From Parietichytrium sp. I65-24A (taxonomy: Eukaryota > Sar > Bigyra > Thraustochytrida > Thraustochytriidae), in the NCBI GenBank assembly GCA_012862575.1, contig BLSF01000066.1, positions 1 through 64,000 on the forward strand: a stretch of 64,000 nt of DNA. Reading direction: 5' to 3'. Positions 4,463-56,889 of the stretch are shown here, one piece after another. Below the pieces are notes generated by a model that did not search any database, was not told where the DNA came from, and saw only the letters and a program-made list of their open reading frames with translations. The translations under genes and the position numbers were made by a program. How positions within the stretch are numbered: the stretch's first letter is position 1; the number at the start of each line of letters is the position of its first letter.

Positions 4463-5605
4463 TCATCCGCCAGCCGAAGCGCCGTTTGCTCTCGCGCGCT
4501 TTCGTATTTCCTCATTGGTGAGGACTTTGGCAGCGGGGCGCTTTGTCCCGTTAACTTCCTGCTTAACAACCTCAACCACGGTTCGCTGCACTGGAGCGAC
4601 GGGCTCCCACTGCTGTCCTCCCAAAAGTTGCGCCCGGTGATATTCAAGAGCATCCTCAACGAGCTTATCCACTTGACCGTACTCGGACATGCAGTCCAGC
4701 AAGGCTTTCAGCCTGATTTCATCCGTCACCGTCCACGCATTTGGATCGCTAGGTTGCGCTCCTTGAGCGCTTGCCCCTGGAGCTGGAGAAGCATCAATCA
4801 AGCTGGGTATTTCTGGTAAATACCCGTATACTCTCTTGTCGTTTTGAAACTGCGAGAAATATAGGTCGATTGACTCTTTGCACTTTTCTCGCGAGTAAAA
4901 CCCGTCAAGAGCCAGACGATTAAAAAAGGTGCCCAGAACCTTGACGCCAAAATGCTCAAAAAATACACTGTTTAGATTGAAACTGTCAACCGCGTTTCCG
5001 ACTCCTTTTGGGCACACCAACACCACCGGCGCCTTTGCTGCTTTTGCCAGCTCTGCATTTGACAGACCTACAATGGATCCAACCGCGGGGAATCCAACCC
5101 CATCCACCACAACAATTCTATCCCATGAAAATAAATATGTTAGAACGCATTCTCTTGCTCTTGCCATCCTACCTCATCCCATTTCACACACGTACTTTCT
5201 CCCCGGCTTGGAGGCCAGTCTGTCCACTGCTTTTTGTACATCTTGCACCATTTGCGCGCTGTCTTTGGTATTGCCCATGAGAAACTCACGCGTGAACCCA
5301 GACACATACACGACCGGGCCTATCGGTTCGCACTCAATCCCCCTGCTCTCGCAAAATTTTGCAACTAACTGCGTCGCCTCGCACTGCGTGGCAGGCTTGA
5401 TATACGCCAGTTCATGAGGCGCGTACCCCAGCGTGTGCACCAGGCTCGCCAAGATTCCCAAGCATACGGACGACTTTCCCACTTGCGACCTGTCCCCACC
5501 CACGAAGATTCGCGCGGCATCTCCTTCTGTCTGCTCTGCTCCCCGGCCAGCGAGAGCAATACGGGCGCACCACTCTGCCGCCGTGTAGCGCCGCGGCCCT
5601 TCCAT
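4463..5605 (-). CDS. BioD/CobB-like P-loop NTPase (two exons)
   Basis: Exon 1 is 5605-5190 and exon 2 is 5117-4463, joined across a 72-nt intron (5118-5189, GTGTGA...ATAG). The product is 356 residues. A P-loop GGDRSQVGKS lies at residues 36-45. The frame then continues through the junction as a hydrophobic strand and VDGVGFPAVGS. This matches dethiobiotin-synthetase-like domains (AAA_26 type; also found at the N terminus of bacterial phosphotransacetylases), where the VDGVG..V.S segment is typical. The last 70 residues are a divergent basic tail. Family members often lack a proven reaction outside biotin synthesis; no biotin genes are nearby, so the substrate is unknown. The splice is supported because only this donor restores both the frame and the strand motif. 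Confidence 0.75.
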
Positions 5606-7163: not shown

Positions 7164-10100
7164 ATGGCCAAAGGAAACGTAAAAGATCACCAAGACAGAG
7201 AAATTTGCAAGATGGCGCAGGTTCTATTTGAGGCCGGGAATGTGCTTGTTCGCACTGGGAAGAAGGATGACCTGGAAGCTTTGGTCGCTCTCGAAGAGTG
7301 GGTGAACCCCGCTTTTCAAGCGGCCAGGTCCTGCATCGCCGAACGGCTCAGCATCAATGCGGAAGGTACGCTTGTCCTTCAAGTTGGCAATCAAGTGGCC
7401 GGAGTCCTTTACTCCGTCCAAATCGGGGAGAACCGCACGACAGAGTCCAAAGACAGGGATGAATCTTTCAAGTACAGCGCGATTTACTCGCTTCACACGC
7501 CTGAGGCAGACACGGCGTACTGGATTCACCTTATAGTCATGCCAGACCATCGCCATTTGATCAAAACGTTTCACAGCAAAGCGTTGGAGTACTTTTTCGA
7601 GAATCGCAGATGTCGATCTGTTCGTGCACTTACGCACTGTGTGGGATTTAGGAGCCCTGCCGATCGAGTCGACCACCCTCGCCAGAATGATGATGACGAA
7701 GCCCTAGTGCTCGAATATGCCGAGCTGTCTCTCAAAAGCGACCGCAATCTTTTTTTTCACTCGAGTAAAGGCGCGAAGCTACTTGGGGTAGTCTGCGGCT
7801 ACAATGAGCGGGATTCAGCAAACATTGGTTGCGCTGTGGTGATGGAATACCTTCCAACGAAACCTGTTCCATCGCTTGAGCCGGAAGCGAGCTGCGAGCC
7901 ACAAGTCTTGTTGGATGCAGTGCTTCGGGTATTTGCGGTGATAGGTAGCGATTTTAAAAGTGACGATCTTGACAACTGCCTTGACGTCCCTTGGTTCCAG
8001 CTGGGCTTGGACTCGGTTTCGCTCATGACGCTCCACCATGAGCTCGAGAGAACGCTTGACACCAACCTCGATGTCTCGTTTCTGTTTGGCGTCAACACAA
8101 CTCGCAAGCTCCTTGAGACCTTTGACGGTGCTGTGAGGGATCGCCAATCTATGAAACAGGCAATGTCTCGTACAACGCCAGAGCAGGTTGCAATTCATGG
8201 TGTGGGGGTGCGCTTTCCAGGAAGAGAGGGTTCTGATGGCGACATTGAGACCTGCGAAGAGCTTTGGGAAGCTCTTCTCTCAACAGAGAAAGGTGCTGCG
8301 GCGCAACGAAGCCACAAACTCCAAAATCGCGACCGATTCGATTGTGAGTCTTTCGCAGGCTTGGTCAACGAAGACCAAGCACAGTGGATCCCCTTTATGC
8401 AGCGCATTGTGCTCGAATGCACATTGTCTGCTCTAGCAGATACTCCAGAAGAGGTTCTCACTCGTGCCGGACGCCGGGTCGGCATTTTCGTTGCTGCATG
8501 GGATGCATGCGCGAGTATTTCGGATGACTTCGGAGAATTCCTCTCAGTACACGCTGCAAGCGGCACAGCAAACTCTATCCTTGCCAACCGAGTGTCTTAT
8601 TTGTTTGACTTTGTTGGGCCAAGCATGGTCATTGACACGGCTTGCTCGGGCTCTCTGGTGGCGCTAGATTGCGCCCACAACGCGATCTTGCAAGGCAAGT
8701 GCGAAGCAGCGATTGTCATTGGCGTTAATGTAACTTTTCCGCACCGGAATCTGATTCTCGGCAAAGCAGGCTTTCTCTCCCCTAGTGGAGCTTGCCATAC
8801 CTTTGATGAAAGTGCGGATGGCTACGCGAGGAGCGAAGGTTGTGGAGCTATTTTTATTTCTCGCCACGTTGAACAAGTTCCATATCGGGCACTTCTTTGC
8901 GGGACGGCGATCAATCAAGACGGACGGACCGCAAATCTCCATGCTCCCAACCCAGCTGCACAAGAGAGTCTCATCAAGGACGCCCTGTTGATGTGCAACC
9001 TCGAGCCTGAGCAGGTTAGCTTTGTGGAATGCCATGGAACGGGAACGAAGCTTGGTGACCCAATTGAGTGCCATGCGCTCCACCACGCATTCGACTCTGC
9101 CTCGCATCGCGAGAGCAAAGTACAATTGACCGCATCGAAAGCGAAATTTGGGCACACTGAAGGCGCTGCGGGTATGCTTGGATTGATTTCTAGCATATTG
9201 GCCCTCCAGGCGTCACAGCTCCCACCAAACTCCCACATTTCCCGATACAATGAGAGCATCTCGTTCTCGAAGCTTTGTGTGTCTCCAGTTGGCCCGAAGC
9301 CACAGAATCTCGATCCCGCCGTTGAACATTATGCTGGAATATCTTCCTTTGGGTTCGGGGGAACCAATGCGCATACCATACTGCGCTCTGCTCCACAAGA
9401 AAAGAGGCGGCGCATAGTTGAGCTAAAACGTATAGACTGGCTCGCTCGCTGTAAGCAAATCCCATCTCGTTTCCCAGCAGATGCTTCTGCCCCTCTAGCG
9501 GAAAAACACGTCATTGACCCTAAACTCTACGATCTGTCGGTTCTGACGAATCACCGAGTTGGCTCCACATCGGTGTTGCCTGGCATGTTCTTCTTGTCAG
9601 CCCTCAAACTTGCTTTCAAAGGGCAAACACGTTTTTTGGAGCTCTCAGCACTACGCTTTGCCAGGTTCACTCCGATTGACGCCTCCCGAGACTTGCAGAT
9701 TCGATGGGAACGTTCGTATAATTCAGTCAAGTTTTTCTCTGATGAACAATTAGAGGCAGTGTTTGAATCAAGTTGGAGCGCAAAGGAGGCCTTGACTCAC
9801 GCGAATGTTCAGTTTGACGAGTTTCAGCACAGCTGCGCAATACCCAAAGACGTCGCTTCTCTCTACGAAAACATTGGGAATGAATATGATGGACCTTTCC
9901 GCGCCTTGAAGGAGCTATGGACCGACGAGCTGGCCACGAAAGCATTCTGTAGAGTTGATTGCTCTCATTCACTCGAGTGCCAAGAAATTATTCTCTTGGA
10001 TGCTCTGACGCATGGCTGCTTCTCTTTGACAAGCCCGGTGAATTTTGGGCGGCCACTCTACATTGAGAGTTTTGAAACTGTCTGTTTCGAAACACAGAGC

Positions 10101-13100
10101 TCCGATCCCATCGAGTGGGGTGCCATCTCGGTGAATCATGATGGTTCCTTTGACTGTGTTGCTTTTAGTCACAACCGTGAGAAGGTCTTTGCATGGACCG
10201 GATTTCGCATTGGTTTTCTTGAAAATCGCTCCCTCCGGAATCTTGTGCACACAGACGTCTGGGAGCGGATAGAAGCTTGCACCGACGAGATTGTTGCACA
10301 CGATGCAAACTCATCTTCGAAAAGTATTCGTCCTCAAAAGTCGATACTCGACTTGCACGCTTCGATACAAGCCCTGTCACTGTCATCTGTTACCTCTGAT
10401 AGTTCGCGAGTCACAGTTCAGGTTGAGAGTGAAGAGCATGCGGCGTACGTTCGGTCCATCCAGTGCGAGAATCCAGCTCTTGGATTACAGATACAGAGGG
10501 CGAAAGCATCGGAGTCTTTCAAAGCACTTCGAGAAGGGTCGGAGATTAGGGTCGATCCAGAAGGGGCGGTCGAAGAGAGAATTCTGTTGCAAAGTAACAA
10601 TTTGCTTGTGAATTCGACAAGTGATGATGTCTTGATTAGCGTCCGAAAGGGCGGGGTCTATGCTGTCACAGGTGGTTGTGGTCACATAGGTTCCGCAATT
10701 GCTCGCGAGCTTGTTGCCAGAGGTGCTGGAAGGGTGATCTTGCTCGGCCGTACCAGGCCCCTGACGTGCCCCACCTCAGACTTGATCGAGTTTCTGGAAT
10801 GTGACATCGGGCAGCGAGAAAATGTCGAGCAAGTTCTGGGTCCCATGAAAGGCCTTGTCCACGGGGCGTTCCATTGTGCAGGCACTTTGCACGATAGCAC
10901 TGCGTCTGGCCTCACAGAGGAGCACTTCGAGACCGTCTATCGCCCCAAGGTTTATGGTGCAAACAACCTCTTGAACGTACTTCAAGGGTCGTGCGATTTT
11001 ATAGTGTTCTGCTCTTCCGTAACGGCGGGATTTGGCGCACCAGCCCAAGCCAACTACGCTGCAGCGAATGGAGCAATTGACGATTTGGCTCGTCGCTCAC
11101 CCAATTTAAATGTACTTAGCGTTCGATGGGGCCCGTGGGCTGGTGGCGGTATGGCTGCCGAGTATTCGCAGCGTTGGAATCGAATGGGTTTCGAGCTACT
11201 AGATCCCAGGCATGCGCTTTTTGCACTTTTTGGTCTTTCAAAAGCTGCTCCGCAAATAGTTACGATTGCAAAACTTTCACCAGAGCGCCTTCTGGAGTAT
11301 TACACAGCGCTGGAAAAATACCTGAGTCGTGTCGCTTTCGATTCGCAAAGGACGTCAAAGGTCTCTGAGGAGGACTCACTCGTCGATACTGTAAAAACTC
11401 TCTTGGTGTCTATGGGTGTGAGTAACCCTGATCTAGACCTACCTTGGCGCGAGAGCGGGCTCGATTCCCTCTCCATGGTGGAGTTTCGAAATGCTCTCCA
11501 GCATCGCGTACAGACAAAGATTCAATTGCACGACACAATTCTCTTCGACTATCCCACCCCTCACGAATTAGTGGAGTGGTTGATGACGCAAATTCATCAA
11601 GAACAGGCACCTTCGATTGCACACTCCCAGCAACAAGCTATGACTCCCCAAGCTCAAGAACGCCGCAGCTCGTCTTCCGCCTTATCAGTAACAGGAGTTG
11701 CATGCCGTCTTCCAGGAGGCATAACGTCTCCTGAAGAGTTCTGGGATTTTCTCGTCCAAGGACAGAGCGCGATTGGCTCTATCCCGCTTGGGAGGTTCGA
11801 CTCTGAAATACACTGCTCCACCGAGTTCGCGAAGGGTCGGTCTTACACTAGTAAAGGTGGTTTCGTGGACGGACTCGAGAGGTTTGACTTTCGACAGTTC
11901 TCCATTTCTGAGCAAGAAGCCCGGCAGATGGACCCTCAGCAAAGGCTTGCGATGCAAGTTGCATTTGAGGCGTTGAGCAAAGCAAACCTACTTGAGAAGA
12001 CGAGATCCAAAAAGCGCATCGGCGTTTTCGTAGGGGTAATGACGAATGATTGGGGGAGCATGGTTCAAACCGACAGTCAAGTGGCTCGGGCAAGTAGCTA
12101 CAGTGCGTCTGGGCACATTTCTTGCATTCTGGCGAACAGAATATCTTATACGTTTGGATTGAGTGGGCCGTCGATGAGCGTTGACACAGCGTGCAGTTCC
12201 TCACTCGTGGCCTTGCATACCGCAAGCGCTGCCATTGCCCTCGGAGATTGTGATGCTGCGTTGGTTTTGGGGGTGAACGCAATGCTCAGCCCGGCAATGT
12301 ACGTTCAAGAATGTGCCGCAAGAATGCTATCTCCAACTGGAAGATGTGCAACGTTTTCTGCGAAGGCTGATGGATACGTTCGCTCGGAAGGATGTGTTGC
12401 ATTTGTCGTGGAACCAGCTACTACTGCCTTGAGGTCCGGAAAGCCCAGTTTCGCACAAATCCTAAGTACTGCAGTCAATCAGGATGCTCGGAGCGCAAAT
12501 CTGACAAGTCCTAATGGCAAAGCACAAGAAGACGTCATCCGTTCTTGCCTAGACAGAGCAAATCTTCACCCGAATGCTATTTCTTATGTGGAAACTCATG
12601 GGACGGGTACACCGCTTGGAGATCCAATTGAAGTCAGGGCCCTAGCCAATGTCTTTGGTGAGCCAGGGAGATCGGCAGATTTGTGCCTTGGAGCGGTCAA
12701 ATCCGTGCTTGGGCACGCTGAAGCAGCTGCCGGGCTCGTTAGTGCGCTGAAGGCGATATTGTGCATTCAAAACGGGTTTGTCCCTCCCAACCTACACTTC
12801 TCAGAAAAGGAAATCAACCCGAGCGTTGCGGAAGCTAGACTGCCGTGCATGGTTTTTCCCGAGAAAAACTTTCCCCTCGGCTCAAACGCTGTCGCTGGGA
12901 TATCATCGTTTGGTTTTGGAGGCACCAATGCGCACATGTTGGTTACAGCAGATCGGTTTCCAACGACTGGGGCTATCCCAACTACTCGCGAAGAAAGGTT
13001 GGATCGCTTGGGCTGGGCACAGCCTCTGGAATCTACATTGACCCTTGAGTATAAGGATTGGAAAGACGAGATGGAGCCGACTACAGGTTGGACTTTTCAG

Positions 13101-16100
13101 GTGGTGGAGAGCCTCGAAGATGTTAGCAGTCTTTTGAAAAGTCTATCGACTCAGAAACTTTTACTTGGGATTAGAGGGACGGCGCAACCACGCAACCAAG
13201 GGGCGATCTTAGGCTTTCTTCGCTCAGCTTGGCTGGAAGGGTTTTCAGGCAAATTCAGAGCAATCGTCTTCGATGTTGACGTGCAGCCACACTGTCCGAC
13301 TCAGATACCCAAAGATGAACCTGAGATCAAAATAGTCAAGGGTAATAGGTTTTGTGTCCCGCGCTTAGAGAAGATGGACAAAGACCTGGCGCCATACAGC
13401 CTTATTTGGCCGGTCGCGAGTGAACGCAATTCTCCTGTCATTGTGACGGGGGCGTCCGGCGGAATTGCTTCGGAGCTCATTAGATTCCTTCATGATGAGA
13501 TGGGGTTTCGATGCATCCTGTGTCTCTCGAGGTCCAAAACGAGCTATGGAAGTACGATGATAGGTGCCAAAGATATTTGCTGTGATGTTACGAGCGAGTT
13601 TCATGTCAAGAGCGTAGCTGCATTGTTTCCGAGAGCTCTTTTGGTCATTCATGCTGCTGGAATGCTGGTGGAACAAGATATTGCCAGCCATACTGAGGAA
13701 TGGTTGGAAGAGCACATGCGTGTCAAAGTGGAGGCTGCACAGCATCTGGAGAAGCACTTTGACCCAATACACTTTATCGCATTCTCTTCCTCATCATCGA
13801 TCCTAGGAATGAGACGCGGCGCGGCTTATGCTGCTTCCAATGGTGCTCTCGATGAGCTCGTGTCCGAATGGAACGCAAGAGAAGGTGGCGATGGAAGACA
13901 TATTAGCATTCAGTGGGACATGTGGAAGGAGGTGGGGATGGCAAGTGACAGGGGGATGACCAAAGGGGATCTCCGTGGCTTCAGTACTCTCTACGGCCTG
14001 CAAATTCTTGCGGGCATCATATTCAACATAGATCGTCTCGGGCCCAGCGTCTTTGTCGGCAGAGCGAACTGGGCTTCTTTGTACGCCAATGGACGAACGA
14101 AGATACTGCAAGATCTCGTAACTTCCAGCAGCTCTCGTCAATCGGCTTCTTTGAGCGATTTGCACGTTGTCAACCAGCAGAGACGCGATAGCGTGCCAAG
14201 AACTGTGCTCGATACCAGTATAGGTTCTGTGCTTGACTGGATACTCATCACCTGCCCGAAATTTGTTGGAGACGGTTTGACCATGGAAAGCGACAGCTCC
14301 TGGGAGGAAGTTGGCTTCGACTCGCTCAGCATGACTGACTTTATAGCGGAAGCCAACGAAAAATGGAAGCTGGCCGGCACATTACATGCTCTTCCTGAAA
14401 CTGCTCTCTTTAACTACCCGACCCCACAGCGTTTCGCCAAGTACTTGAGCGATGTACTGCTTTCTTGCCCGCAGTCTCAAGACTCAACTAAAGATGGAAC
14501 AAACTCAGAAGAGCCAGGTCCTGATAGAACAGAGCAGGATGCCTTGATCGTAGGGATGGGTCTTCGTTTTCCGGGCTCTGCGGAAAATTTCTCCCCAGAC
14601 AACTTTTGGAATTTTCTGTGCGAAGGCCGGGACGCAATGCAGACCATTCCCCCATACCGCTTCCCGGCTATCGATCAGAAGGATGTCTACGTGTCGAAGG
14701 CTGGATTTCTTCACCCAGATCGATTTCAGGACGCCTCCGTTGGAGAGCATCTTTTACAGCGCCGAGATGCCAGAATTTCTCGTGCGGAGCTAAATTTCAT
14801 TGATCCTCATCAAAAGATCGCACTCCAAGTTGCCGCAGACGCTCTTGAACAAGCTCGGCGTGCTGGAGCCAATCTGGACAAGGTAGGCGTTTTCGTCGGG
14901 GCACAGAACACTGAGTTTACTGCCACACAGCTCGATAAAGTTGGGACATTCACTGCCACAGGCACTGCGCTTTCTATTATCGCAAATAGAATTTCTTACT
15001 GCTACGGACTTACTGGCCCCTCTCTCACCGTGGACACTGCTTGTTCATCGTCGCTCACAGCGCTCAGTATTGCTGAAAAAGCCTTGCGTTCTGGAGACTG
15101 TACAGCTGCAGTTGTCCTTGGGGTCGACCTCATGCTGACCTCCCATCGATTTGAAACAACTTGTGCGGCCAAAATGCTAAGTCCGAATGGAAGGTGCGCA
15201 ACCTTTTCTGATGAAGCAGATGGCTATGCGCGAGGAGAAGGCTGTGGGGCAATTGTGCTCACTCTTGGTGACTGCAGTGACAGCCAGCCAGCTTGGGCGC
15301 GTCTTGCAAGTGTTGCCATCAATCAAGACGGCCAAAGCGCGAATCTAACGTCTCCAAACGGGCTTGCACAAGTTGCTTGCATCGAATCTGCTCTTATGAG
15401 AGCTGGTATCTCAGGCGATCTTGACGCCGTGAGGTTTGTCGAGACCCACGGAACAGGTACCGCACTCGGTGACCCGCTCGAGGTCGAGTCCTTGGCAACA
15501 GTTTTTCAAAGGCGAAATGCAAGCACCGGGCCATTAGTTCTCGGGGCAGTGAAAACAAGCATCGGTCATTTGGAAGCTGCCGCTGGCATTGCAGGCATTA
15601 TTAAGACGGTTCTTTGCTTGGTGAAGCAAACCGTCCCTCGAAACCTGCACTGTTCAACATTGAATCCCCGTCTGAAAGCCTCACTCCACCTCGCGGCCTT
15701 TGACTTTCCAGTTTCATCTTCGGTACCACTCACCGCGAAGCCCGGAACAGATGTGATTTATGCCGGAGTGTCATCCTTCGGTTTTGGGGGAACCAACGGG
15801 CATTGCATCCTTGCCTCAATTTCGCGTGATCGCTCTTTTAAAATGGAAGAAATTGCTCGAGAGTCACCCCTGTGCTTGGGTACTGGAGTAAAGCCGTATG
15901 ATGTCAAAATTCTCGAGCAAGTTGATGGGGAAGTGAGTATCCGCTTGAAGGTATCCGAAATCGCTATTGAAGTTCTGCGCAATCACAGGGTAGGGGCGGT
16001 CGAAGTTATTCCGGCAACAACCTACATTGAATTTGCCGATCCTATCTTGGATGCCTTGCAACGCCTCGAAAGTGGTCCAGCGGTAAGCAAGGCCTACCTT

Positions 16101-19100
16101 CTTGAAGACCTTGAGTTCCAAAACATGCTCCTCATTGAAGCAGAGGTTTGCGAATTGTTCTTGCGCGTTAACGCTCGCTCGTTAGACAACAGGGGGTGGC
16201 GCCTGAAAATCTGCTCGGATGACTTGGCCATCGTGTATGCCGAAGTATCTGCCCGGAGAGCCAAAGAAGAATCTGCAAATAGCTTGTTGGAGTTGGAGAA
16301 GATCAAGCGCCTTTGCAGCCAGCCACTACAAGCAGGACCTCAACTGTATAGCGAGCTGGGAAACGAGTACGGTGGTCCGTTCACGTCACTGACGGAGGCA
16401 TGGTCAAGTTTGAACGAGGTATACATGCTTGGTAAGGTGGACGTCGACGGAGCTGTGCCATCATCCATGAGGTCAGCAGTCTGGTTAGATTCTGCTTCGC
16501 ACGTGGGTATCTCTATGCTTGCACAGCACCTTAGGCGGCTTCCAGTCTACGCATCAAAGGCAGAATCGTATTATTCCGCGCCATCCTATGCCAAGCAGCC
16601 CGGTCCATCGTCCATTTGGTCACTACTTGAGCGAAAAGGTGAGAATCTGTTTGACATGAAGCTCTATGATCCCAGTGGAAAACTTCTTGCAGCGGTATAC
16701 CGCTTTTCATTTGGTTTCTTTTCCCAAGCAAAGGGCGAAGGCATTCTCAAAAACAAATTACTCTATCACGATGTGTTAGTCGACTGCCAAGTGACCGTCT
16801 CAAGTGAGCCTCCCCCAGAAGCTGTTTGGGACAAGAGCACCGTCGAGGAGCTGCATGCTGAAGTTCAATTGCACTTGCGACAGAATCGATTTCCGCGGCG
16901 AGTTCAGATCATTGCGAGAAGTGGAGCGCACATAGGTTACGCTCGAACACTTCGCAATGAAATAGGTGCTGATGATGGATCCAGAATTCAAACTGTCTGG
17001 AGCGCAAAGCACATGGCCTCCGAGGATGTGGATCCAAGAGTTGCGTGGGGCGTGAAGGAGCCAGAGGTCATGGTATCGTCCGCGGGGCGCTTGTTTTGCC
17101 CAAGGCTTTATCGTCTTCCACTCGACACTGGGAGACATGAGGCAGCCTTTTTGAAGCGCTGCAAAAGTGGGACCATTCTTGTGACCGGCGGCTTTGGAGG
17201 CCTCGGGTCAGAGATTTGTAAGGAATTTATAAGACTGGGTGCATCGAGAGTTTTGCGGATGGGCCGAACTCGTTCTCACACGGTGGAGGTTTTGCCGAGA
17301 ACCACCGCACTCGTCTGCGATGTCAGCGATTTATCGTCGCTACGAGAAGCTCTCAACCCATACCTCGCAGACATTTCAGGTGTCGTGCATTGCGCTGGAG
17401 TTCTGGAAGACTCCACAATCTTGAAAATGGAGATGGATTCCTTCGCAAGGGTTCGCTCTCCGAAAGTTCATGGGGCGCAGAACCTGCTTCGAGTAGGCCT
17501 TTCAAGCTCCACATTGTTTGTCTTTTGCTCGTCCTTGTCTGCTGGGCTCGGCCTGAGCGGCCAAGCAAACTATGCCGCTGCCAACGCCGAGATGGAAAGT
17601 CTAGTGAGAGACCACGAACCTCGTCTTAGTCAACAGAAGAATTGGTGCTGCATAAGATGGGGTCCTCTTCTTGGGGCCGGGATGGCGATGGGCCCAAGAG
17701 CCAAGACACGGTGGACGAAACTTGGACTAGACACTTTGACAATGAATGAAGCCGCTCGCATACTTGCAGATCTTTCGGTAACTTCTGAGGTTTTGACCGT
17801 GGCTAAATTTCTGCCAACCTTTGCGGAGACGTGGAATTCAACTTATCTTCTTGGGTTAGGATCCTCTCCGTCAATAGAGTCTTCTGCTTCTACAGGAAAT
17901 GTGACCCGCGATGGGTCAAAGTGGTCCGAAATTATTTTGAGTATTGCGATGGAGGTTAATCCTGAACCGGACATGGAGATGTCGATGGATACTTCTTGGC
18001 GGGACGCTGGACTAGATTCCTTGTCGATGGTGGAGTTTCGAAATATCTTACAAAAACGCTTCGAACTTTCGTTGAAGCAAACCGTACTATTTGACTTTCC
18101 CACTCCAAGGGATTTGGCAGCGCATTTGGATGTTCATTCCCCGTTGAAAACTTTGCATGGCTCCAGTCCAAGCAGCGCCAAGACTCAACAGCCAAGTCAG
18201 AACGCGGAGCTGTCTCTGAAGGCTCGGGCTCCACGCACAAGTAAGAGAGACAGCGACTTTCTGGTAACCTCTGCGAGCTGCAGACTACCTGGTGACATCT
18301 CTACCCCTGACGAGTTCTGGGAGTTGCTCTGCAGTGGAAAAGACGCGTTTTCCACAATTCCCAGCACGAGGTTCAAATGGAGAAGCCTATATCGGGATGA
18401 GGCTGGAGAGCCAGGAACCATCTACACCGACCAAGGTGCTTTTATTTCTGATGTTGAGCTATTCGATTCCAGCAAGTTCCTACTCTCAGATCAAGAGGTT
18501 CGCTATATGGATCCCCAGCATCGCATTGCTCTGGAAGTGGCTTATGAAGCACTCGTCCGCTCCGGACACATGGAGGCAGAAAACATTAAAAGCGCAAAAG
18601 GCAAGAGCATTGGAGTTTATGTGGGGCAAATGACCAACGACTGGTCGGCTCTAGTCGCGCGCGACGAGCTCGACAACGCGGTTTCATCATTTACTGCCAT
18701 TGGACATTCAGGAGCCCTGACTGCGAATCGGATATCCTTTACTTTTGGCCTCCACGGCCCTTCCATGACCATCGACACAGCTTGCAGTTCTTCCTTGGTT
18801 GCTCTTCACCTTGCAATGGCTGCAATTGACAGAGGCGATTGCGAAGCTGCTCTAGTGCTCGGTGTAAATCTTATTCTGGCGCCCGATCTTTATGTTGAGG
18901 AGTGTGGCGCGCGAATGCTGTCTAAAGATGGCCGATGCTACACGTTTTCCAACAAAGCAAATGGCTATGCTCGGGGGGAGGGTTGCGTTGCTTTGGTCAT
19001 TGAAAAGGGTTCTTCGAACACTTCTTCCTCTACAGGCGCACTAGGCTACATATGTGGCTCTGCAGTAAACCAAGACGGCCAAAGCGCAAGCATTACCTCA

Positions 19101-22100
19101 CCGAATGGTTTGGCTCAAGAAAGAGTCATCAAGCGCGCATTAGCAGCTGCAGGCGTTGAGGCAAGCGAGATTGCATTAATTGAAGCACATGGAACCGGGA
19201 CCGCTCTTGGTGATCCACTTGAAGTGTCTGCACTTAGCCAAGTCTTTACAAATAGTGAGCGCGGAGTTCCGGTGCTTGTAGCAACTGCCAAGACGTATGT
19301 TGGGCATACCGAGGGTGCTGCGGGGCTGACTGGTGTGCTAAAGGCGCTCCTCTCATTAAAATTCGGCCAGGTTCCCGGTAACCTGAGCGTGGAAAAGATT
19401 TCGGATATAAGCAGTGCGGTGTTGGAGGTTGCAGGTTCAAACATACGATTTCCTTTACGCGGAGAAACCGTAGAAATCAAGAAAGGCTCCTTTGCTGGAG
19501 TGTCTTCTTTCGGCTTTGGAGGCACCAATGCCCACGTGATCCTTCGTGGGTGCAATTCAGATGACCCAAATTGTCGCGACGTATATTCAGGTGCACAGCA
19601 TCAGCTAAGTTGGAACAGAAAGAGGCACAGCTGGAGAATCGTGGAGCATTTCTCCGACGCTGATCCGCTCGATCGCTGCGCAACACTTGATATGGACTTG
19701 TGGGGCTATAACGCAGACAGTGTGCTGCCGGCTTTTGCGGTTCTCGACCGAGCCCTGTACGAAGTTTCCAAGGTTGAGAATGGCAGTAGGCCAGTCTTGT
19801 TGTCGGAGGTTACACTCTCGCCTGTCTGGTACAGCTCAAGGTGGGACACAACCAATCTTGCGTGTCATCCTGCGGAGAATTCGCTGACTCTGACGTCCGG
19901 TGAGGAGGAGCACTTCAAAGCAAAGATGAGCTTTACCCTGCCAGAAGAACCTGAACACCAAGAAAGTCAGGGAAACCTCAGCATTGAGCTTGACGTCTCG
20001 TCTTGGCTGCATGACCGGATGAATGGTCATGGCTTGGCCTTCAAGAGCTACGTCTCAAAACGGCTCGTGACGAATGGAAGAGCCTCAGCTCGCCTGGAAT
20101 TTGGGCCATCTTCAAGTGCAACCGAGTGCTGTGTTGACCCACGAGTCCTCTGTGAGTCGCTTGAGTGCCTAGCCCTTCTTCTGCGTGAGTATGCGTCAGA
20201 GTCTCAGAACTTTCTTCAACTTGCGTCCGTTGAGAATATATCTTTCTTCGATTCCCCACGTCGGAGATATGGAGTATCCTACGCAGAGATATTTCCCTCC
20301 GAACGATTAATCAAGTACTATGATGCATCGGGAAATATTTCATTGCAGCTACGGGGGATTGAGTACAAACCAGATGCAAAGTTTGGCCCGTCCTCGTGCT
20401 TTGCAAAAGCATGGTTTGCTCACCAAGCCTTTCCATTGCGACCTCAGTTGGCAAGATTCAGGGTTAGTAGCAACGAAATTTTGGCGAAATACAAGGTAAC
20501 ATCCTCTGAAGATGGGGCAAATGACAAACTTCTGGAATCATATTGCGGATGGCACATTGCGAGAGCGTTGGAAACTGTCTCGAATACTTGTGCAAGTGTA
20601 GAGCCGGAGTATCTCAACATTTTGCGCAAGCGATGGGCGGCCAGATATTCTCAGTACAGCGGAGACATGCCAGAAAGGGGAGAAGGTGTGGAGTATGATT
20701 ACTTTGACGTTGTGAAGGAAAAACTGTCCGGTCTGATTGCTGCAGAGCTAAACCCTGTTGACGTTCTTTTCGAGGATCCCAATCTCATATCAAGGCTGTA
20801 CTCGGAGTCCGCCCCGTCGCTCCCTTGTAACAAATCAGTTGCAGACATAGTGACGGTGGCAGCCTCGAATCTGCTCCAAGCCCCAGGCGCACATCGCTCA
20901 CTACGCATTTTGGAAATTGGGGCTGGAACAGGCGGAACCACTCGGCACGTTCTTCCAACACTCAAAAGTGTGGGCGACCAAATTCAGGTGGAGTATTTCT
21001 TCACAGATATCTCCGAGTACTTTTTGCGTGCTGGCCAAACCTTTGCAGAGTATTCTCATATGCTAAGGTATGTTCTCTTTGATATAGAGAAGGATCCAGA
21101 AAATCAGGGCTTTGAAGCTGGATCCATTGATATAATCATAGCCTCCAACATTGTGCACGCAACTGCAAATTTGGAGATTACAGTGGGAAATGCGTATAAA
21201 CTGCTCTCCTCTGGCGGACTTTTCATACTGAACGAGGCGACAACCTCCACAGCCTTTCTCGACGGCACCTTCGCATTTGCTGAAGGCTGGTGGCGGTTTT
21301 TGCAATGCGACAGATTTAGGGCTGGACTGGATACTCCTCTACTCAGTTTCGATCAGTGGCGAAGTGTGATGGCGGAGTCTGGTTTTGATGGATGCTCCCT
21401 CGCCCATCAAGGTACACAAGGCCAAATTGTGATGCTTGCGGAAGTAAAAGATCGCCGTAAAACTGATTCTGTAGTGCAGAATGAGGAAGATAAAACTTGG
21501 GCCAAAACTTTAGCAGGAAAGATGACAGATATGCGGCTCTTCGATTGCAGCATGCTCGTTGCCGACGAGACTGAAGATTCACAGCAACTCGAGGAAAAGC
21601 TACGGGCTCTGCTTTTGGATCAGAGCGAAAGGAAGAAATGCGTTGTTATTAGGAGTGGTAAATATCCATGGCATTCCCTCGTGGCAGGCGTGATGAGAAG
21701 TTTTCGGAAGGAAAATGCTACAACAGGGTGGCTGCAGCTGTTTGACTTGGAAGAGGGTGTTAGCGCAGAGTCAGCTGCCGCTCTTTTGGGAGACGAATTG
21801 CAGCGCGAGAAGCCTCTAGGTCTTGAGGTCCGGTTTGATAAATTTGGCGGAAGGTTTGAGAAGCGCGTAATCCAGTACAATCCTGCCATAGAGCTCACTC
21901 CAGAGCCTCGTAAAGTCCGGTCGAATGGAACCTACTTGATCACAGGAGGGCTTGGTGGGTTAGGGCTCCTTGCTGCCACAACTCTTCTTGAGCTTGGAGC
22001 AAGAACCCTCGTGCTAGTTTCCAGGTCTGGGCAGCTCCGAGATGGCGATAAATGCTCGGCCGTTGAGAAAAAAATGTTCGACGAGCTTAAAACGTGGCCA

Positions 22101-23912
22101 GGTGCACAGGTGGTGACACTCGCCTGCGACGTTTCCAATCGAGACCAAGTGGACGGGCTCATGGATACCATATCTTTATCGCTCCCTCCTTTAGTAGGGG
22201 TTATTCATAGCGCCGGGCTGACGGTGGATTCTATCTACCTGGAGCAGACCTGGGACGAACACTTTGAGCCAGTTCTTGGAGCCAAAAGCAGAGCTGCACA
22301 GTACTTAGACGACTCCACGAGGAGAATCAGGGCTGTCTTGGACATCTTTTTGATGTTCTCCTCTGCCGCAGGTGTCTTTGGTTCTCGCGGGCAGGCAAAC
22401 CATGCTGCGGCAAACGCAGTTCTCGACGCGATCGCGGAAAACAGGCACCGAGAAGGACTTTGCGGGCAGTCAATTCAATGGGGCGGGTGGTCAGGGCTCG
22501 GAGCGGCCGAAAATAAGAAAGGTGCGAAGGAGCACATTCTGGGTTCAGGAATGGGTCTTATATCCCCAGCGCAAGGCAGGCGATTCTTAGCACAAATTCT
22601 GCAGTCGAAGGACGTAAGTCACTCTCTTTGCTTCTCGCCAATTGACTGGAGCCGATTCTCCGTGCACGACCCGGATCAGCGCTCGGTCACCAATTTCAAG
22701 GGTCATTCCAAAAAGGATAGCGCTGAGCGCCAACCTCAAGGTCTGGCAGGGAAAGCAACTAATGGCGAAGAAACACAGGGTCAGCAACAGTGGACATCCA
22801 GACACATCATGGCTAAATTGGAGACAATTTTAGATTCCTGTGGTTTAGGCGACTTGTCAAATGATTTCCAAGAAGCTGGATTGGACTCTCTGACCTCTCT
22901 GGAGCTCATTGCTATTGTTCAGCAGACGTTTGCAGTGAATCTCGTGCCCACATTCTATTTGGATTACACTACCGGACAACAACTGGGCGAGTTTCTGTAC
23001 CAGGAGATTTGCGGCACCATTCAGGAAAGTGAAGTAATGGAGCTGATCCATACGGAAAACAAACAAAATGAGCTGGCGCTCTCCTCCTGGATTGAGCCAC
23101 TCTTTAAGCCCTCCATGAGACTTTTTTGTTTTGCTTACGCTGGCGGGCATCCAAATGTATTTCACTCCTGGTTAAGACACCTCCCCGCAAGCGTGCAGCT
23201 CTGCCCTATATCTATGCCAGGGTACGGAAAGCAGACTGGCAAAGCATTCTGGCCAAGTGTACAGGAACTGGCTCACACCCTCCAAAAAGCTCTGCCTATG
23301 GACCTTCCATATGCCTTTGCAGGCTCATGCCTCGGAGCCATAGTGAGCTACGAAGTGTACAGATCTCTGGTCGGGGAGGATGGAAGTCAACTTCCTCTAC
23401 ACATGTTCACGATTGCGTGCTCCGCTCCGCAGGACTATTCCCGAGCTTTGAGAATGCTTTACAGCAACCGTCTGAAAGAAAACGAGTTCTTTGTGCCATC
23501 AGACCAGCAGCAAGCAGCCAAACGCTTCAGCGACCTCAGCCAAGAGTCTCGCGCACACACTGTCCAAGACCTCCATACTTTGGGATTTTTCGAGAATGAT
23601 GAGACTCTCGAGAATTTGATCAGCAACCAGGTATACTTTGAACATGTCATGTCTCAGCTTGCAGGCCAAATGCAGCTCGCAGAACGATACCAGTATAACG
23701 ACGCGGACGTGCCAGAGCAACTCCGAGTCGGCCTCACTAGCATCAGCGGAGCTCAAGACGAAACGATCCCGAATGGTTGGCCAGCAGAATGGAAGAGTCA
23801 GTGCCGTGCAGGCTCCTTTGAGCACGTAGTGATTGAAGACGGTGGTCACTACTTAGTGCACTCACATCCGAAACAAATTTGCGACGTGATCGTCCGCAAA
23901 CTGAACTTATAA
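7164..23912 (+). CDS. AT-less (trans-AT type) modular type I polyketide synthase, 5582 aa, intronless
   Basis: One uninterrupted frame encodes a multimodular megasynthase. Domain order by motif is: GNAT-like (about residues 25-232), ACP1 (Ser284), KS1 (Cys494/His624/His664), DH1 (His797/Asp946), KR1 (Tyr1298), ACP2 (Ser1435), KS2 (Cys1677/His1812/His1851), KR2 (Tyr2222), ACP3 (Ser2387), KS3 (Cys2627/His2762/His2802), DH2 (His2941/Asp3109), KR3 (Tyr3470), ACP4 (Ser3619), KS4 (Cys3874/His4009/His4048), degenerate DH, C-methyltransferase (about 4510-4790), KR4 (His5080 in place of Tyr), ACP5 (Ser5242) and thioesterase (about 5310-5582). No GHSxG acyltransferase motif occurs after any KS; KS1 and KS3 run into a DH within about 60-70 residues. 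Malonyl must therefore be loaded in trans by an enzyme encoded elsewhere. No enoyl reductase is seen. The nearest assigned neighbours are not biosynthetic. ATG 7164 is the first in frame; ATG 7212 is an alternative. Confidence 0.93.
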   Translation: MAKGNVKDHQDREICKMAQVLFEAGNVLVRTGKKDDLEALVALEEWVNPAFQAARSCIAERLSINAEGTLVLQVGNQVAGVLYSVQIGENRTTESKDRDESFKYSAIYSLHTPEADTAYWIHLIVMPDHRHLIKTFHSKALEYFFENRRCRSVRALTHCVGFRSPADRVDHPRQNDDDEALVLEYAELSLKSDRNLFFHSSKGAKLLGVVCGYNERDSANIGCAVVMEYLPTKPVPSLEPEASCEPQVLLDAVLRVFAVIGSDFKSDDLDNCLDVPWFQLGLDSVSLMTLHHELERTLDTNLDVSFLFGVNTTRKLLETFDGAVRDRQSMKQAMSRTTPEQVAIHGVGVRFPGREGSDGDIETCEELWEALLSTEKGAAAQRSHKLQNRDRFDCESFAGLVNEDQAQWIPFMQRIVLECTLSALADTPEEVLTRAGRRVGIFVAAWDACASISDDFGEFLSVHAASGTANSILANRVSYLFDFVGPSMVIDTACSGSLVALDCAHNAILQGKCEAAIVIGVNVTFPHRNLILGKAGFLSPSGACHTFDESADGYARSEGCGAIFISRHVEQVPYRALLCGTAINQDGRTANLHAPNPAAQESLIKDALLMCNLEPEQVSFVECHGTGTKLGDPIECHALHHAFDSASHRESKVQLTASKAKFGHTEGAAGMLGLISSILALQASQLPPNSHISRYNESISFSKLCVSPVGPKPQNLDPAVEHYAGISSFGFGGTNAHTILRSAPQEKRRRIVELKRIDWLARCKQIPSRFPADASAPLAEKHVIDPKLYDLSVLTNHRVGSTSVLPGMFFLSALKLAFKGQTRFLELSALRFARFTPIDASRDLQIRWERSYNSVKFFSDEQLEAVFESSWSAKEALTHANVQFDEFQHSCAIPKDVASLYENIGNEYDGPFRALKELWTDELATKAFCRVDCSHSLECQEIILLDALTHGCFSLTSPVNFGRPLYIESFETVCFETQSSDPIEWGAISVNHDGSFDCVAFSHNREKVFAWTGFRIGFLENRSLRNLVHTDVWERIEACTDEIVAHDANSSSKSIRPQKSILDLHASIQALSLSSVTSDSSRVTVQVESEEHAAYVRSIQCENPALGLQIQRAKASESFKALREGSEIRVDPEGAVEERILLQSNNLLVNSTSDDVLISVRKGGVYAVTGGCGHIGSAIARELVARGAGRVILLGRTRPLTCPTSDLIEFLECDIGQRENVEQVLGPMKGLVHGAFHCAGTLHDSTASGLTEEHFETVYRPKVYGANNLLNVLQGSCDFIVFCSSVTAGFGAPAQANYAAANGAIDDLARRSPNLNVLSVRWGPWAGGGMAAEYSQRWNRMGFELLDPRHALFALFGLSKAAPQIVTIAKLSPERLLEYYTALEKYLSRVAFDSQRTSKVSEEDSLVDTVKTLLVSMGVSNPDLDLPWRESGLDSLSMVEFRNALQHRVQTKIQLHDTILFDYPTPHELVEWLMTQIHQEQAPSIAHSQQQAMTPQAQERRSSSSALSVTGVACRLPGGITSPEEFWDFLVQGQSAIGSIPLGRFDSEIHCSTEFAKGRSYTSKGGFVDGLERFDFRQFSISEQEARQMDPQQRLAMQVAFEALSKANLLEKTRSKKRIGVFVGVMTNDWGSMVQTDSQVARASSYSASGHISCILANRISYTFGLSGPSMSVDTACSSSLVALHTASAAIALGDCDAALVLGVNAMLSPAMYVQECAARMLSPTGRCATFSAKADGYVRSEGCVAFVVEPATTALRSGKPSFAQILSTAVNQDARSANLTSPNGKAQEDVIRSCLDRANLHPNAISYVETHGTGTPLGDPIEVRALANVFGEPGRSADLCLGAVKSVLGHAEAAAGLVSALKAILCIQNGFVPPNLHFSEKEINPSVAEARLPCMVFPEKNFPLGSNAVAGISSFGFGGTNAHMLVTADRFPTTGAIPTTREERLDRLGWAQPLESTLTLEYKDWKDEMEPTTGWTFQVVESLEDVSSLLKSLSTQKLLLGIRGTAQPRNQGAILGFLRSAWLEGFSGKFRAIVFDVDVQPHCPTQIPKDEPEIKIVKGNRFCVPRLEKMDKDLAPYSLIWPVASERNSPVIVTGASGGIASELIRFLHDEMGFRCILCLSRSKTSYGSTMIGAKDICCDVTSEFHVKSVAALFPRALLVIHAAGMLVEQDIASHTEEWLEEHMRVKVEAAQHLEKHFDPIHFIAFSSSSSILGMRRGAAYAASNGALDELVSEWNAREGGDGRHISIQWDMWKEVGMASDRGMTKGDLRGFSTLYGLQILAGIIFNIDRLGPSVFVGRANWASLYANGRTKILQDLVTSSSSRQSASLSDLHVVNQQRRDSVPRTVLDTSIGSVLDWILITCPKFVGDGLTMESDSSWEEVGFDSLSMTDFIAEANEKWKLAGTLHALPETALFNYPTPQRFAKYLSDVLLSCPQSQDSTKDGTNSEEPGPDRTEQDALIVGMGLRFPGSAENFSPDNFWNFLCEGRDAMQTIPPYRFPAIDQKDVYVSKAGFLHPDRFQDASVGEHLLQRRDARISRAELNFIDPHQKIALQVAADALEQARRAGANLDKVGVFVGAQNTEFTATQLDKVGTFTATGTALSIIANRISYCYGLTGPSLTVDTACSSSLTALSIAEKALRSGDCTAAVVLGVDLMLTSHRFETTCAAKMLSPNGRCATFSDEADGYARGEGCGAIVLTLGDCSDSQPAWARLASVAINQDGQSANLTSPNGLAQVACIESALMRAGISGDLDAVRFVETHGTGTALGDPLEVESLATVFQRRNASTGPLVLGAVKTSIGHLEAAAGIAGIIKTVLCLVKQTVPRNLHCSTLNPRLKASLHLAAFDFPVSSSVPLTAKPGTDVIYAGVSSFGFGGTNGHCILASISRDRSFKMEEIARESPLCLGTGVKPYDVKILEQVDGEVSIRLKVSEIAIEVLRNHRVGAVEVIPATTYIEFADPILDALQRLESGPAVSKAYLLEDLEFQNMLLIEAEVCELFLRVNARSLDNRGWRLKICSDDLAIVYAEVSARRAKEESANSLLELEKIKRLCSQPLQAGPQLYSELGNEYGGPFTSLTEAWSSLNEVYMLGKVDVDGAVPSSMRSAVWLDSASHVGISMLAQHLRRLPVYASKAESYYSAPSYAKQPGPSSIWSLLERKGENLFDMKLYDPSGKLLAAVYRFSFGFFSQAKGEGILKNKLLYHDVLVDCQVTVSSEPPPEAVWDKSTVEELHAEVQLHLRQNRFPRRVQIIARSGAHIGYARTLRNEIGADDGSRIQTVWSAKHMASEDVDPRVAWGVKEPEVMVSSAGRLFCPRLYRLPLDTGRHEAAFLKRCKSGTILVTGGFGGLGSEICKEFIRLGASRVLRMGRTRSHTVEVLPRTTALVCDVSDLSSLREALNPYLADISGVVHCAGVLEDSTILKMEMDSFARVRSPKVHGAQNLLRVGLSSSTLFVFCSSLSAGLGLSGQANYAAANAEMESLVRDHEPRLSQQKNWCCIRWGPLLGAGMAMGPRAKTRWTKLGLDTLTMNEAARILADLSVTSEVLTVAKFLPTFAETWNSTYLLGLGSSPSIESSASTGNVTRDGSKWSEIILSIAMEVNPEPDMEMSMDTSWRDAGLDSLSMVEFRNILQKRFELSLKQTVLFDFPTPRDLAAHLDVHSPLKTLHGSSPSSAKTQQPSQNAELSLKARAPRTSKRDSDFLVTSASCRLPGDISTPDEFWELLCSGKDAFSTIPSTRFKWRSLYRDEAGEPGTIYTDQGAFISDVELFDSSKFLLSDQEVRYMDPQHRIALEVAYEALVRSGHMEAENIKSAKGKSIGVYVGQMTNDWSALVARDELDNAVSSFTAIGHSGALTANRISFTFGLHGPSMTIDTACSSSLVALHLAMAAIDRGDCEAALVLGVNLILAPDLYVEECGARMLSKDGRCYTFSNKANGYARGEGCVALVIEKGSSNTSSSTGALGYICGSAVNQDGQSASITSPNGLAQERVIKRALAAAGVEASEIALIEAHGTGTALGDPLEVSALSQVFTNSERGVPVLVATAKTYVGHTEGAAGLTGVLKALLSLKFGQVPGNLSVEKISDISSAVLEVAGSNIRFPLRGETVEIKKGSFAGVSSFGFGGTNAHVILRGCNSDDPNCRDVYSGAQHQLSWNRKRHSWRIVEHFSDADPLDRCATLDMDLWGYNADSVLPAFAVLDRALYEVSKVENGSRPVLLSEVTLSPVWYSSRWDTTNLACHPAENSLTLTSGEEEHFKAKMSFTLPEEPEHQESQGNLSIELDVSSWLHDRMNGHGLAFKSYVSKRLVTNGRASARLEFGPSSSATECCVDPRVLCESLECLALLLREYASESQNFLQLASVENISFFDSPRRRYGVSYAEIFPSERLIKYYDASGNISLQLRGIEYKPDAKFGPSSCFAKAWFAHQAFPLRPQLARFRVSSNEILAKYKVTSSEDGANDKLLESYCGWHIARALETVSNTCASVEPEYLNILRKRWAARYSQYSGDMPERGEGVEYDYFDVVKEKLSGLIAAELNPVDVLFEDPNLISRLYSESAPSLPCNKSVADIVTVAASNLLQAPGAHRSLRILEIGAGTGGTTRHVLPTLKSVGDQIQVEYFFTDISEYFLRAGQTFAEYSHMLRYVLFDIEKDPENQGFEAGSIDIIIASNIVHATANLEITVGNAYKLLSSGGLFILNEATTSTAFLDGTFAFAEGWWRFLQCDRFRAGLDTPLLSFDQWRSVMAESGFDGCSLAHQGTQGQIVMLAEVKDRRKTDSVVQNEEDKTWAKTLAGKMTDMRLFDCSMLVADETEDSQQLEEKLRALLLDQSERKKCVVIRSGKYPWHSLVAGVMRSFRKENATTGWLQLFDLEEGVSAESAAALLGDELQREKPLGLEVRFDKFGGRFEKRVIQYNPAIELTPEPRKVRSNGTYLITGGLGGLGLLAATTLLELGARTLVLVSRSGQLRDGDKCSAVEKKMFDELKTWPGAQVVTLACDVSNRDQVDGLMDTISLSLPPLVGVIHSAGLTVDSIYLEQTWDEHFEPVLGAKSRAAQYLDDSTRRIRAVLDIFLMFSSAAGVFGSRGQANHAAANAVLDAIAENRHREGLCGQSIQWGGWSGLGAAENKKGAKEHILGSGMGLISPAQGRRFLAQILQSKDVSHSLCFSPIDWSRFSVHDPDQRSVTNFKGHSKKDSAERQPQGLAGKATNGEETQGQQQWTSRHIMAKLETILDSCGLGDLSNDFQEAGLDSLTSLELIAIVQQTFAVNLVPTFYLDYTTGQQLGEFLYQEICGTIQESEVMELIHTENKQNELALSSWIEPLFKPSMRLFCFAYAGGHPNVFHSWLRHLPASVQLCPISMPGYGKQTGKAFWPSVQELAHTLQKALPMDLPYAFAGSCLGAIVSYEVYRSLVGEDGSQLPLHMFTIACSAPQDYSRALRMLYSNRLKENEFFVPSDQQQAAKRFSDLSQESRAHTVQDLHTLGFFENDETLENLISNQVYFEHVMSQLAGQMQLAERYQYNDADVPEQLRVGLTSISGAQDETIPNGWPAEWKSQCRAGSFEHVVIEDGGHYLVHSHPKQICDVIVRKLNL
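7236..8140 (+). other. PKS loading module: GNAT-like domain + ACP1
   Basis: The first about 230 residues resemble the GNAT loading domains of trans-AT and related PKSs: an opening VRTGKKDDLEALVALE, a VLQVGNQVAGVLYS strand, a YSLHTPEA segment and a later VRALTHCVGFRSP strand. In studied systems (e.g. CurA) this domain supplies an acetyl or similar starter to the ACP. The usual CoA-binding loop (Q/R-x-x-G-x-G/A) is replaced by PDHRHLIKTF, which lacks the glycines, so activity is uncertain. ACP1 carries GLDSVS with the attachment Ser at residue 284. Confidence 0.75.
8178..11590 (+). other. PKS module 1: KS-DH-KR-ACP
   Basis: KS1 has all three catalytic residues (Cys494, His624, His664) but is divergent: the active site reads DTACSGS instead of DTACSSS, and the usual MDPQ.R.. 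motif is replaced by WIPFMQRIVLE. DH1 shows the HxxxGxxxxP motif (NHRVGSTSVLPG, His797) and the second catalytic Asp in LLDALTHG (Asp946). KR1 has TGGCGHIG and NYAAANG (Tyr1298). ACP2 has GLDSLS (Ser1435). Expected output is an alpha,beta-unsaturated unit. Confidence 0.88.
11670..14460 (+). other. PKS module 2: KS-KR-ACP
   Basis: KS2 is canonical (DTACSSS, Cys1677; ETHGTGT, His1812; GHAEAAAG, His1851). About 200 residues without an AT signature separate it from the KR, consistent with the non-catalytic half of a KR. KR2 has VTGASGGIAS, a departure from TGGxGxxG, with Tyr2222 kept in AAYAASNG. ACP3 reads GFDSLS (Ser2387). Expected output is a beta-hydroxy unit. Confidence 0.85.
14535..18140 (+). 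other. PKS module 3: KS-DH-KR-ACP
   Basis: KS3 has Cys2627, His2762 and His2802. DH2 has HRVGAVEVIP (His2941) and an Asp in WLDSASHVG (Asp3109). KR3 has TGGFGGLG and NYAAAN (Tyr3470). ACP4 reads GLDSLSMVEFRN, identical over these residues to ACP2, which suggests that modules 1 and 3 arose by duplication. Expected output is an unsaturated unit. Confidence 0.87.
18255..23909 (+). other. PKS module 4 with C-methyltransferase, and thioesterase
   Basis: KS4 is canonical (Cys3874, His4009, His4048). The following DH-like region has LWGYNADSVLPAF, in which the catalytic His position is Trp and the Gly is Asn, so it is probably structural only. The methyltransferase has the SAM motif LEIGAGTGGTT (about 4584-4595), as in PKS C-methyltransferases. 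KR4 has TGGLGGLG but NHAAAN, with His5080 at the Tyr position. ACP5 has GLDSLT (Ser5242). The terminal alpha/beta-hydrolase resembles type II-like thioesterases, with AGSCLGA (Cys5389 at the usual nucleophile Ser), SGAQDETIP and a late GGHYLVHSHP His. Expected action is alpha-methylation, possible ketoreduction and release. Confidence 0.85.
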
Positions 23913-56092: not shown

Positions 56093-56889
56093 ACTATTGA
56101 AGTTCAATAGGCAGTCAAGAGTCTTTTGGCACAGTGCGCGCGAGGACACAAACACTCACCGAAGGCTGTTTGGCGGGCGAGACGGGAGAGATGAGAGCAG
56201 CAGAACGTAAACGCTTTCGTCTTCTACACTCTAAAAATCCAGCGGCGAGTTCAATCTAGCTGCGTTTGACAGTGCTTGGCAATCTGACTTCGACGGCCCA
56301 GAGTCGCAAATCCTCACCCAGTCCGCCAGGCAACGGCTCGAGCGAACGGGAAACGCCACGGAAACTAGCACATGCCGCCCTGCAATGCCGCAAGCTGAAG
56401 CTTCCAGAGTTAAATAGCAAGTAAAAGAACAAAACTCCGCAGATTGGAGACGTCAAATCGCCTGTGCTGAAAAATGATCCCTCCAGCTCCGCAAGGAGAG
56501 AGAGAACGCTGCCTTGTTCGTGTTGCCACACTGACTTGTACCCCAATGCTTCCGCGGCGCCCGTTTCCTCGTGTCCTCGAGTACCCCTAAACTCGGAGTT
56601 TTCGTACTTTTCGGCAAATTGGACGCAAGTTAATTGTAATGACCGTTGCAGAAATTAGTGGGCTAGAGTAAATGCTGGGTGATGGATAGGACTAGGTGTG
56701 CGAAGACTTTGGTCAAAGCATGTCAAAGCATCAAACAAGGAAGGATTGCAGAGAATGGAATGAAATGGATTGAATGTTGAGAGATCGAGGGCGTGCATGA
56801 GAAGTATGAGGAGTATGAGGAGCATGAGAAGCAATGCCGAGAAGATGATGTGATGCCATGATGTAATGATAAATTGAGGATTTGGAAAG
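56093..56889. other. Intergenic between two minus-strand genes
   Basis: It holds the 5' region of the DnaJ gene and the 3' end of the aminotransferase gene. Frames here are short and not protein-like. Confidence 0.5.

Follow-up and report, generated by a model that had tools for sequence, protein, structure and literature searches.

A four-module polyketide synthase without acyltransferase domains in a thraustochytrid genome

To which lineage does a multimodular polyketide synthase (PKS) belong when its modules lack acyltransferases (AT) and its gene lies in a eukaryotic genome, and what loads it with malonyl units? The question arises in a 64-kb window (the whole stretch of 64,000 nucleotides analyzed here) from Parietichytrium sp. 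I65-24A. Our analysis argues, with a probability of roughly 0.7, for a eukaryotic assembly-line PKS of four modules whose AT and KS-AT linker were lost, or never present, in a history separate from that of the canonical bacterial trans-AT family. The best reading is an AT-less assembly line that was built by module duplication and is GNAT-initiated.

Domain organization of the PKS gene

The gene of 16.7 kb encodes a four-module PKS of 5582 aa in this marine protist genome as a single uninterrupted frame, at exactly the place where the first-pass annotation had put one intronless gene (Table 1). An in-frame stop lies 6 nt upstream of the ATG start. The layout is GNAT-like decarboxylase-ACP / KS-DH-KR-ACP / KS-KR-ACP / KS-DH-KR-ACP / KS-(dead DH)-C-methyltransferase-KR-ACP-TE. 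Pfam analysis of overlapping protein pieces returned ACP-KS-KR-ACP-KS-KR-ACP-KS-DH-KR-ACP-KS-MT-KR-ACP-TE, that is four KS, four KR and five ACP domains with one MT and one TE. The N-terminal GNAT-like domain, the MT and the TE had gone unnamed in the first-pass annotation, which had DH or KR directly after every KS and no GHSxG AT. The second part of that description holds, whereas after KS4 come a degenerate DH-like stretch, the C-methyltransferase and only then KR.

Pfam found no AT anywhere in the protein, and an AT HMM that we built and ran with all filters off matched none of the ten inter-domain stretches (best E 0.49), so the AT search proposed with the annotation came back empty by both routes. 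The GHSxG motif is absent from the protein, and matches to the looser GxSxG are confined to KR2 and KS4. From the end of KS to the catalytic His of DH we measured 53–54 aa in modules 1 and 3, close to the 60–70 residues counted previously. The AT-less state of this multimodular KS-ACP protein, in a eukaryotic context, is confirmed.

Table 1. Coordinates of the PKS gene, its domains and one intron of the adjoining gene, numbered from the first letter of the window.
Feature	Position	Strand	Evidence or remark
Whole PKS gene	7164..23912	+	single uninterrupted ORF, 5582 aa
GNAT-fold decarboxylase-like loading domain (aa 28–230)	7245..7853	+	phmmer: SxtA 1.6e-11, GphF 1e-5, CurA 5.8e-4
Loading ACP (GLDSV)	7911..8153	+	PF00550 3.6e-8
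KS1 (TACSGS)	8187..9395	+	PF00109/PF02801, motifs
DH1	9486..10313	+	weak alignment to DH3; NHRVG..LP, NEYDGPF, LLDAL motifs; no Pfam or PDB match
KR1 (NYAAAN; LHD, B-type-like)	10653..11141	+	PF08659 2e-61, motifs
ACP1	11415..11582	+	PF00550
KS2 (TACSSS)	11682..12956	+	PF00109 2e-77
KR2	13434..13943	+	PF08659, TGASGG
ACP2	14280..14447	+	PF00550
KS3 (TACSSS)	14541..15824	+	PF00109 1.6e-58
DH3 (NHRVG..IP, LDSAS)	15906..16718	+	PF21089 1.6e-5, slightly below curated cut-off
KR3	17169..17669	+	PF08659
ACP3	17934..18128	+	PF00550 2.7e-12
KS4 (TACSSS)	18258..19556	+	PF00109 9.7e-71
Tentative degenerate DH-like stretch, module 4, catalytic His lost (LWGYNADSVLP)	19641..20483	+	sequence comparison, weak alignment
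C-methyltransferase (EIGAGTG; NIVHAT)	20715..21389	+	CurJ C-MT 2.4e-44; PF08242
KR4 (NHAAAN), His replacing catalytic Tyr	21927..22493	+	PF08659 6e-51
ACP4	22851..22997	+	PF00550
Thioesterase (GSCLG, Cys for Ser nucleophile)	23118..23900	+	PF00975 2.1e-19; matches solved thioesterases, e.g. RifR
Intron, 78 nt (GT...TTCTAAC...AG), in upstream AAA_26-domain gene, outside the PKS	5118..5195	-	context

All four KSs retain intact active-site Cys/His/His motifs. The catalytic His is kept in DH3 and, more tentatively, in DH1. The catalytic Tyr is kept in KR1–KR3, and the Asp of B-type KRs is found in KR1, KR3 and KR4 and is absent from KR2; KR4 and the TE carry unusual active-site residues. Single-sequence AlphaFold models, run for the N-terminus and for the stretch from KS4 to MT, were poor (mean pLDDT 33–37).

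The N-terminal 230 aa gave no Pfam matches. By phmmer, however, this region is homologous to characterized GNAT-fold decarboxylases and, as in the CurA/GphF type, an ACP follows it; in its FFHSSKGA motif, the His lines up with the one in FHVSGGA and FHLGHGA. Similarity extends to the MT-decarboxylase in entries 7uci/7ucl, deposited as a polyketide synthase-related protein, which we take to be SxtA. The nearest relative of the module-4 MT by sequence is the C-methyltransferase of CurJ. CurA, GphF, SxtA and CurJ are parts of other assembly lines whose overall layout is different. In CurA and GphF, the GNAT domain is described as a malonyl-ACP decarboxylase (PMC10127204).

The gene lies on a 226.8-kb contig and has eukaryotic neighbors on both sides, namely an AAA_26 gene upstream, then kinase, Ras, Sec62, Cdc20-like (with a WD40 match that is partial within its frame) and EDR2 genes. 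The eukaryotic flanks described in the first-pass annotation are thus real, with an intron located in the upstream gene, as is the lack of cluster partners, since the window holds no biosynthetic neighbors. GC is even along the window, with the PKS resembling its neighbors, and PKS codon usage correlates with that of the neighboring genes (r 0.67–0.91). Searches of the window for tRNAs and Rfam families gave no matches. On the minus strand, positions 51371–56155 hold a 1594-aa frame that encodes TPR and DnaJ domains, in a region where AT and GC base skew is strong (52–56 kb).

KS phylogeny and the KS-AT linker

We placed the KSs in a tree of 76 rows, composed of bacterial KSs and, as sole eukaryotic PKS entries, those of the same genome. 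KS1–4 form a single clade (100/95) that is sister to four KSs of an NRPS-PKS on a Vibrio nigripulchritudo plasmid (NZ_AP027051) (100/97). As the tree holds no other eukaryotic PKSs, this sister is the nearest among the sampled bacteria only, and algal, dinoflagellate or other protist KSs may be nearer. The canonical trans-AT KSs of Bacillota, Eleftheria and Photobacterium are placed elsewhere, and a tree constrained to put the PKS KSs in their group is worse by 62 log-likelihood units (AU p=0.0002). The loci were classed as canonical by the absence of AT from their modules and by what is generally known of the family, and not by named clusters. KS1 sits on a long branch, and when the divergent KS of a second PKS on contig C68 is in the set, KS1 leaves its clade and joins it (100/95). 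We discarded this grouping, which vanishes when rows change and looks like long-branch attraction; the position of the C68 KS wanders once KS1 is removed.

Similarity searches returned distant relatives. The best bacterial KSs share about 48–50% identity with those of the PKS, and a scan of genome contigs yielded KSs at 38–44% only. Across 282 and 398 genomes scanned by phylum, no KS exceeded 50% identity, and viral contigs gave no match above 35%. An apparent close kinship to PDB chain 7zma (522 bits) was rejected as the sum of two KS domains of ~260 bits each, below CurL at 340.

The region after each KS also sets the PKS apart. In all four modules the PF16197 match stops at profile position 47–56, whereas a canonical module (L047) matches PF16197 from 2 to 83 together with CurL-like and RhiE-like KS-MAT linker models. 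A linker HMM built from 48 cis modules matched nearly all sampled bacterial KSs, those of cis and of AT-less modules alike. It gave no match in any of the four PKS modules or in any Vibrio module. The linker is also missing after two near-identical Myxococcota KSs, one Janthinobacterium KS and one Bacillota KS. As these are unrelated, the linker was lost more than once and its absence alone is not diagnostic. The Myxococcota pair (L081 and L066, from genomes G004 and G072) lacks AT as well and lies elsewhere in the KS tree, a separate linker loss. On the Vibrio plasmid, the KS-AT modules lack the linker, with the AT starting 2–9 aa past the KS, and other modules, among them KS-DH ones, lack the AT altogether.

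The canonical bacterial loci (L036, L047, L053 and L054) resemble the PKS in having modules without AT; L047 uses a discrete AT in trans, and L053 and L054 contain GNAT-like stretches. They differ from it in KS clade and in linker retention. The designation as a trans-AT synthase in the sense of the bacterial family is not supported, and the KS tree of sampled bacteria speaks against it. The first-pass interpretation thus holds in part: by the tests made here, the PKS works like a trans-AT PKS and does not belong to the canonical bacterial family.

Origin of the AT-less assembly line

Eukaryotic AT-less PKSs are less rare than the first-pass annotation supposed. AT-less multimodular PKSs are established in chlorophytes and haptophytes and predominate among chlorophyte type I PKSs, and algal PKSs have undergone duplication of modules accompanied by displacement of the AT (Shelest et al. 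2015, PMC4661987). Such PKSs are discussed for dinoflagellates too. The layout itself is already known: gene Mn4_04057 of the thraustochytrid Mn4, weakly expressed at FPKM 3.52, reads PP-KS-DH-KR-PP:KS-KR-PP-KS-DH-KR-PP:KS-MT-KR-PP-TE without AT (Song et al. 2018, PMC6050695). This domain string is identical to that of our PKS, and we infer orthology from layout, not sequence. As that paper lists the gene in a table as PKS-like only and goes into neither GNAT domain nor linker loss, phylogeny or mechanism, the new elements here are the GNAT loading domain, the loss of the linker, the placement outside the canonical trans-AT family, the relation to Vibrio and the candidate loaders.

Might bacterial DNA have been joined to a protist contig? 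A long uninterrupted bacterial-like ORF is what contamination or a chimera would produce, yet eukaryotic genes on either side of a 226.8-kb contig, the same GC and similar codon use, and the identical domain string in Mn4, independently assembled from PacBio/Illumina reads, leave this next to no credence. Recent horizontal transfer of a canonical bacterial trans-AT gene is very improbable too. Two features common in bacterial assembly lines, loading by GNAT-ACP and modules with a C-MT, would suit such a transfer, as would the single frame and the GNAT-like stretches of two AT-less bacterial loci. The AU test, the absent linker, the low identity to the best bacterial KSs and a codon use resembling that of the neighboring genes all speak against it.

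An older transfer between the protist lineage and a marine bacterium of the Vibrio-plasmid type, whichever way it went, would explain the sister relation and, by descent, the linker-less state of both, including the Vibrio mixture of AT-less and KS-AT modules. We regard it as rather unlikely, as identity to the Vibrio KSs is only about 43–48%, the overall layout differs (the Vibrio system is an NRPS-PKS hybrid spread across several genes, some of whose modules have an AT), and the sister placement stands among the bacterial KSs sampled. Membership in an AT-less lineage of chlorophytes, haptophytes or dinoflagellates, inherited vertically or moved between protists, is similarly doubtful. Compared by description only, the algal PKSs share with ours the eukaryotic host, the multimodular build, an AT displaced in trans and module duplication, and in chlorophytes the AT-less type prevails, but they are mostly without MT domains and GNAT is unmentioned for them (PMC4661987). 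Slightly more credible, and still tentative, is a linker-less, AT-less PKS class found in a marine bacterium as well as in a protist. Its AT and linker would have been lost independently of the canonical trans-AT family, and its modules, with no docking remnant, would be served by discrete malonyl transferases borrowed from fatty-acid synthesis. Independent loss or primary absence of AT and linker in a eukaryotic assembly line remains our preferred reading.

Candidate partners and predicted product

We surveyed the genome (42.5 Mb, 172 contigs) for AT, KS and phosphopantetheinyl transferase (PPTase) loci. Three discrete FabD-type ATs are present, on contigs C6, C12 and C68, in agreement with the earlier suggestion that a FabD-like enzyme might act from elsewhere. 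They share a clade, separate from cis ATs (100/98), with a discrete AT encoded at a Paenibacillus AT-less (trans-AT) PKS locus. The C68 enzyme is fast-evolving, and the C6 and C68 reading frames show no obvious presequence; upstream exons might add one. Of the two PPTases, one lies within the type I FAS and one stands alone (AASDHPPT/Sfp-type) on C72, so that the genome search proposed with the annotation found candidates for both kinds of partner. Given the three discrete ATs and the stand-alone PPTase, loading of the PKS ACPs with malonyl in trans appears feasible.

Judged from its motifs, the assembly line might work as follows. The stand-alone PPTase would arm all five ACPs, and a discrete malonyl transferase, with C12 or C6 as best candidates and C68 next, would load malonyl onto each. 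The GNAT-fold domain would decarboxylate malonyl on the first ACP to acetyl. Modules 1 and 3 would each extend the chain by an enoyl C2, with module 2 contributing a hydroxy C2 and module 4 a C-methylated C2, probably left as ketone or alcohol because KR4 lacks the catalytic Tyr, before the TE would release the finished chain. An acetyl starter supplied by GNAT decarboxylation and extended by four malonyl units would yield a C10 chain, to which one methyl is added. The predicted product is a roughly C11 methylated hydroxy-dienoic acid, about 7-hydroxy-2-methyl-3-(oxo or hydroxy)deca-4,8-dienoic acid or a derivative. Thraustochytrids are culturable and industrially used, so product and loading partner could be found directly. 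A single-gene eukaryotic AT-less PKS with candidate loaders is thus a tractable case for studying how malonyl transferases are recruited without AT or linker, and it also suits the question of whether AT was lost independently in PKSs that are not of the bacterial trans-AT family.

The remaining AT-family loci are a fused type I FAS and the AT of the second PKS on C68. KS-family loci comprise the four PKS KSs, a 432-aa type II-like frame on C1, the C68 KS and the FAS; KS-search matches on C9 and C76 are thiolases by sequence. The FAS, at about 212500–228500 on C40 (L021, L027), is a 4180-aa frame with AT, KS and the embedded PPTase. No PUFA-synthase KS or MAT was found in the searchable stretches of this thraustochytrid assembly, whose gaps mean that absence is not implied; the PKS itself differs in architecture from thraustochytrid PUFA synthases (Pfa KS/CLF/MAT, tandem ACPs).

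The second PKS, at C68:15906–21776 (L022 7907–10000 with L026 1–3774), is an uninterrupted 1956-aa ORF with the order AT-ACP-KS-ACP that also carries cobalamin-independent methionine-synthase-like (PF01717) and flavin-monooxygenase-like domains. We know of no described PKS with this domain combination. Beside it, on the opposite strand, lie a discrete AT and an SDR. The pair of AT-KS-PP gene and adjoining discrete AT resembles the consecutive Mn4 genes Mn4_10925 (AT) and Mn4_10926 (AT-KS-PP), the latter highly expressed at FPKM 308.75 (PMC6050695).
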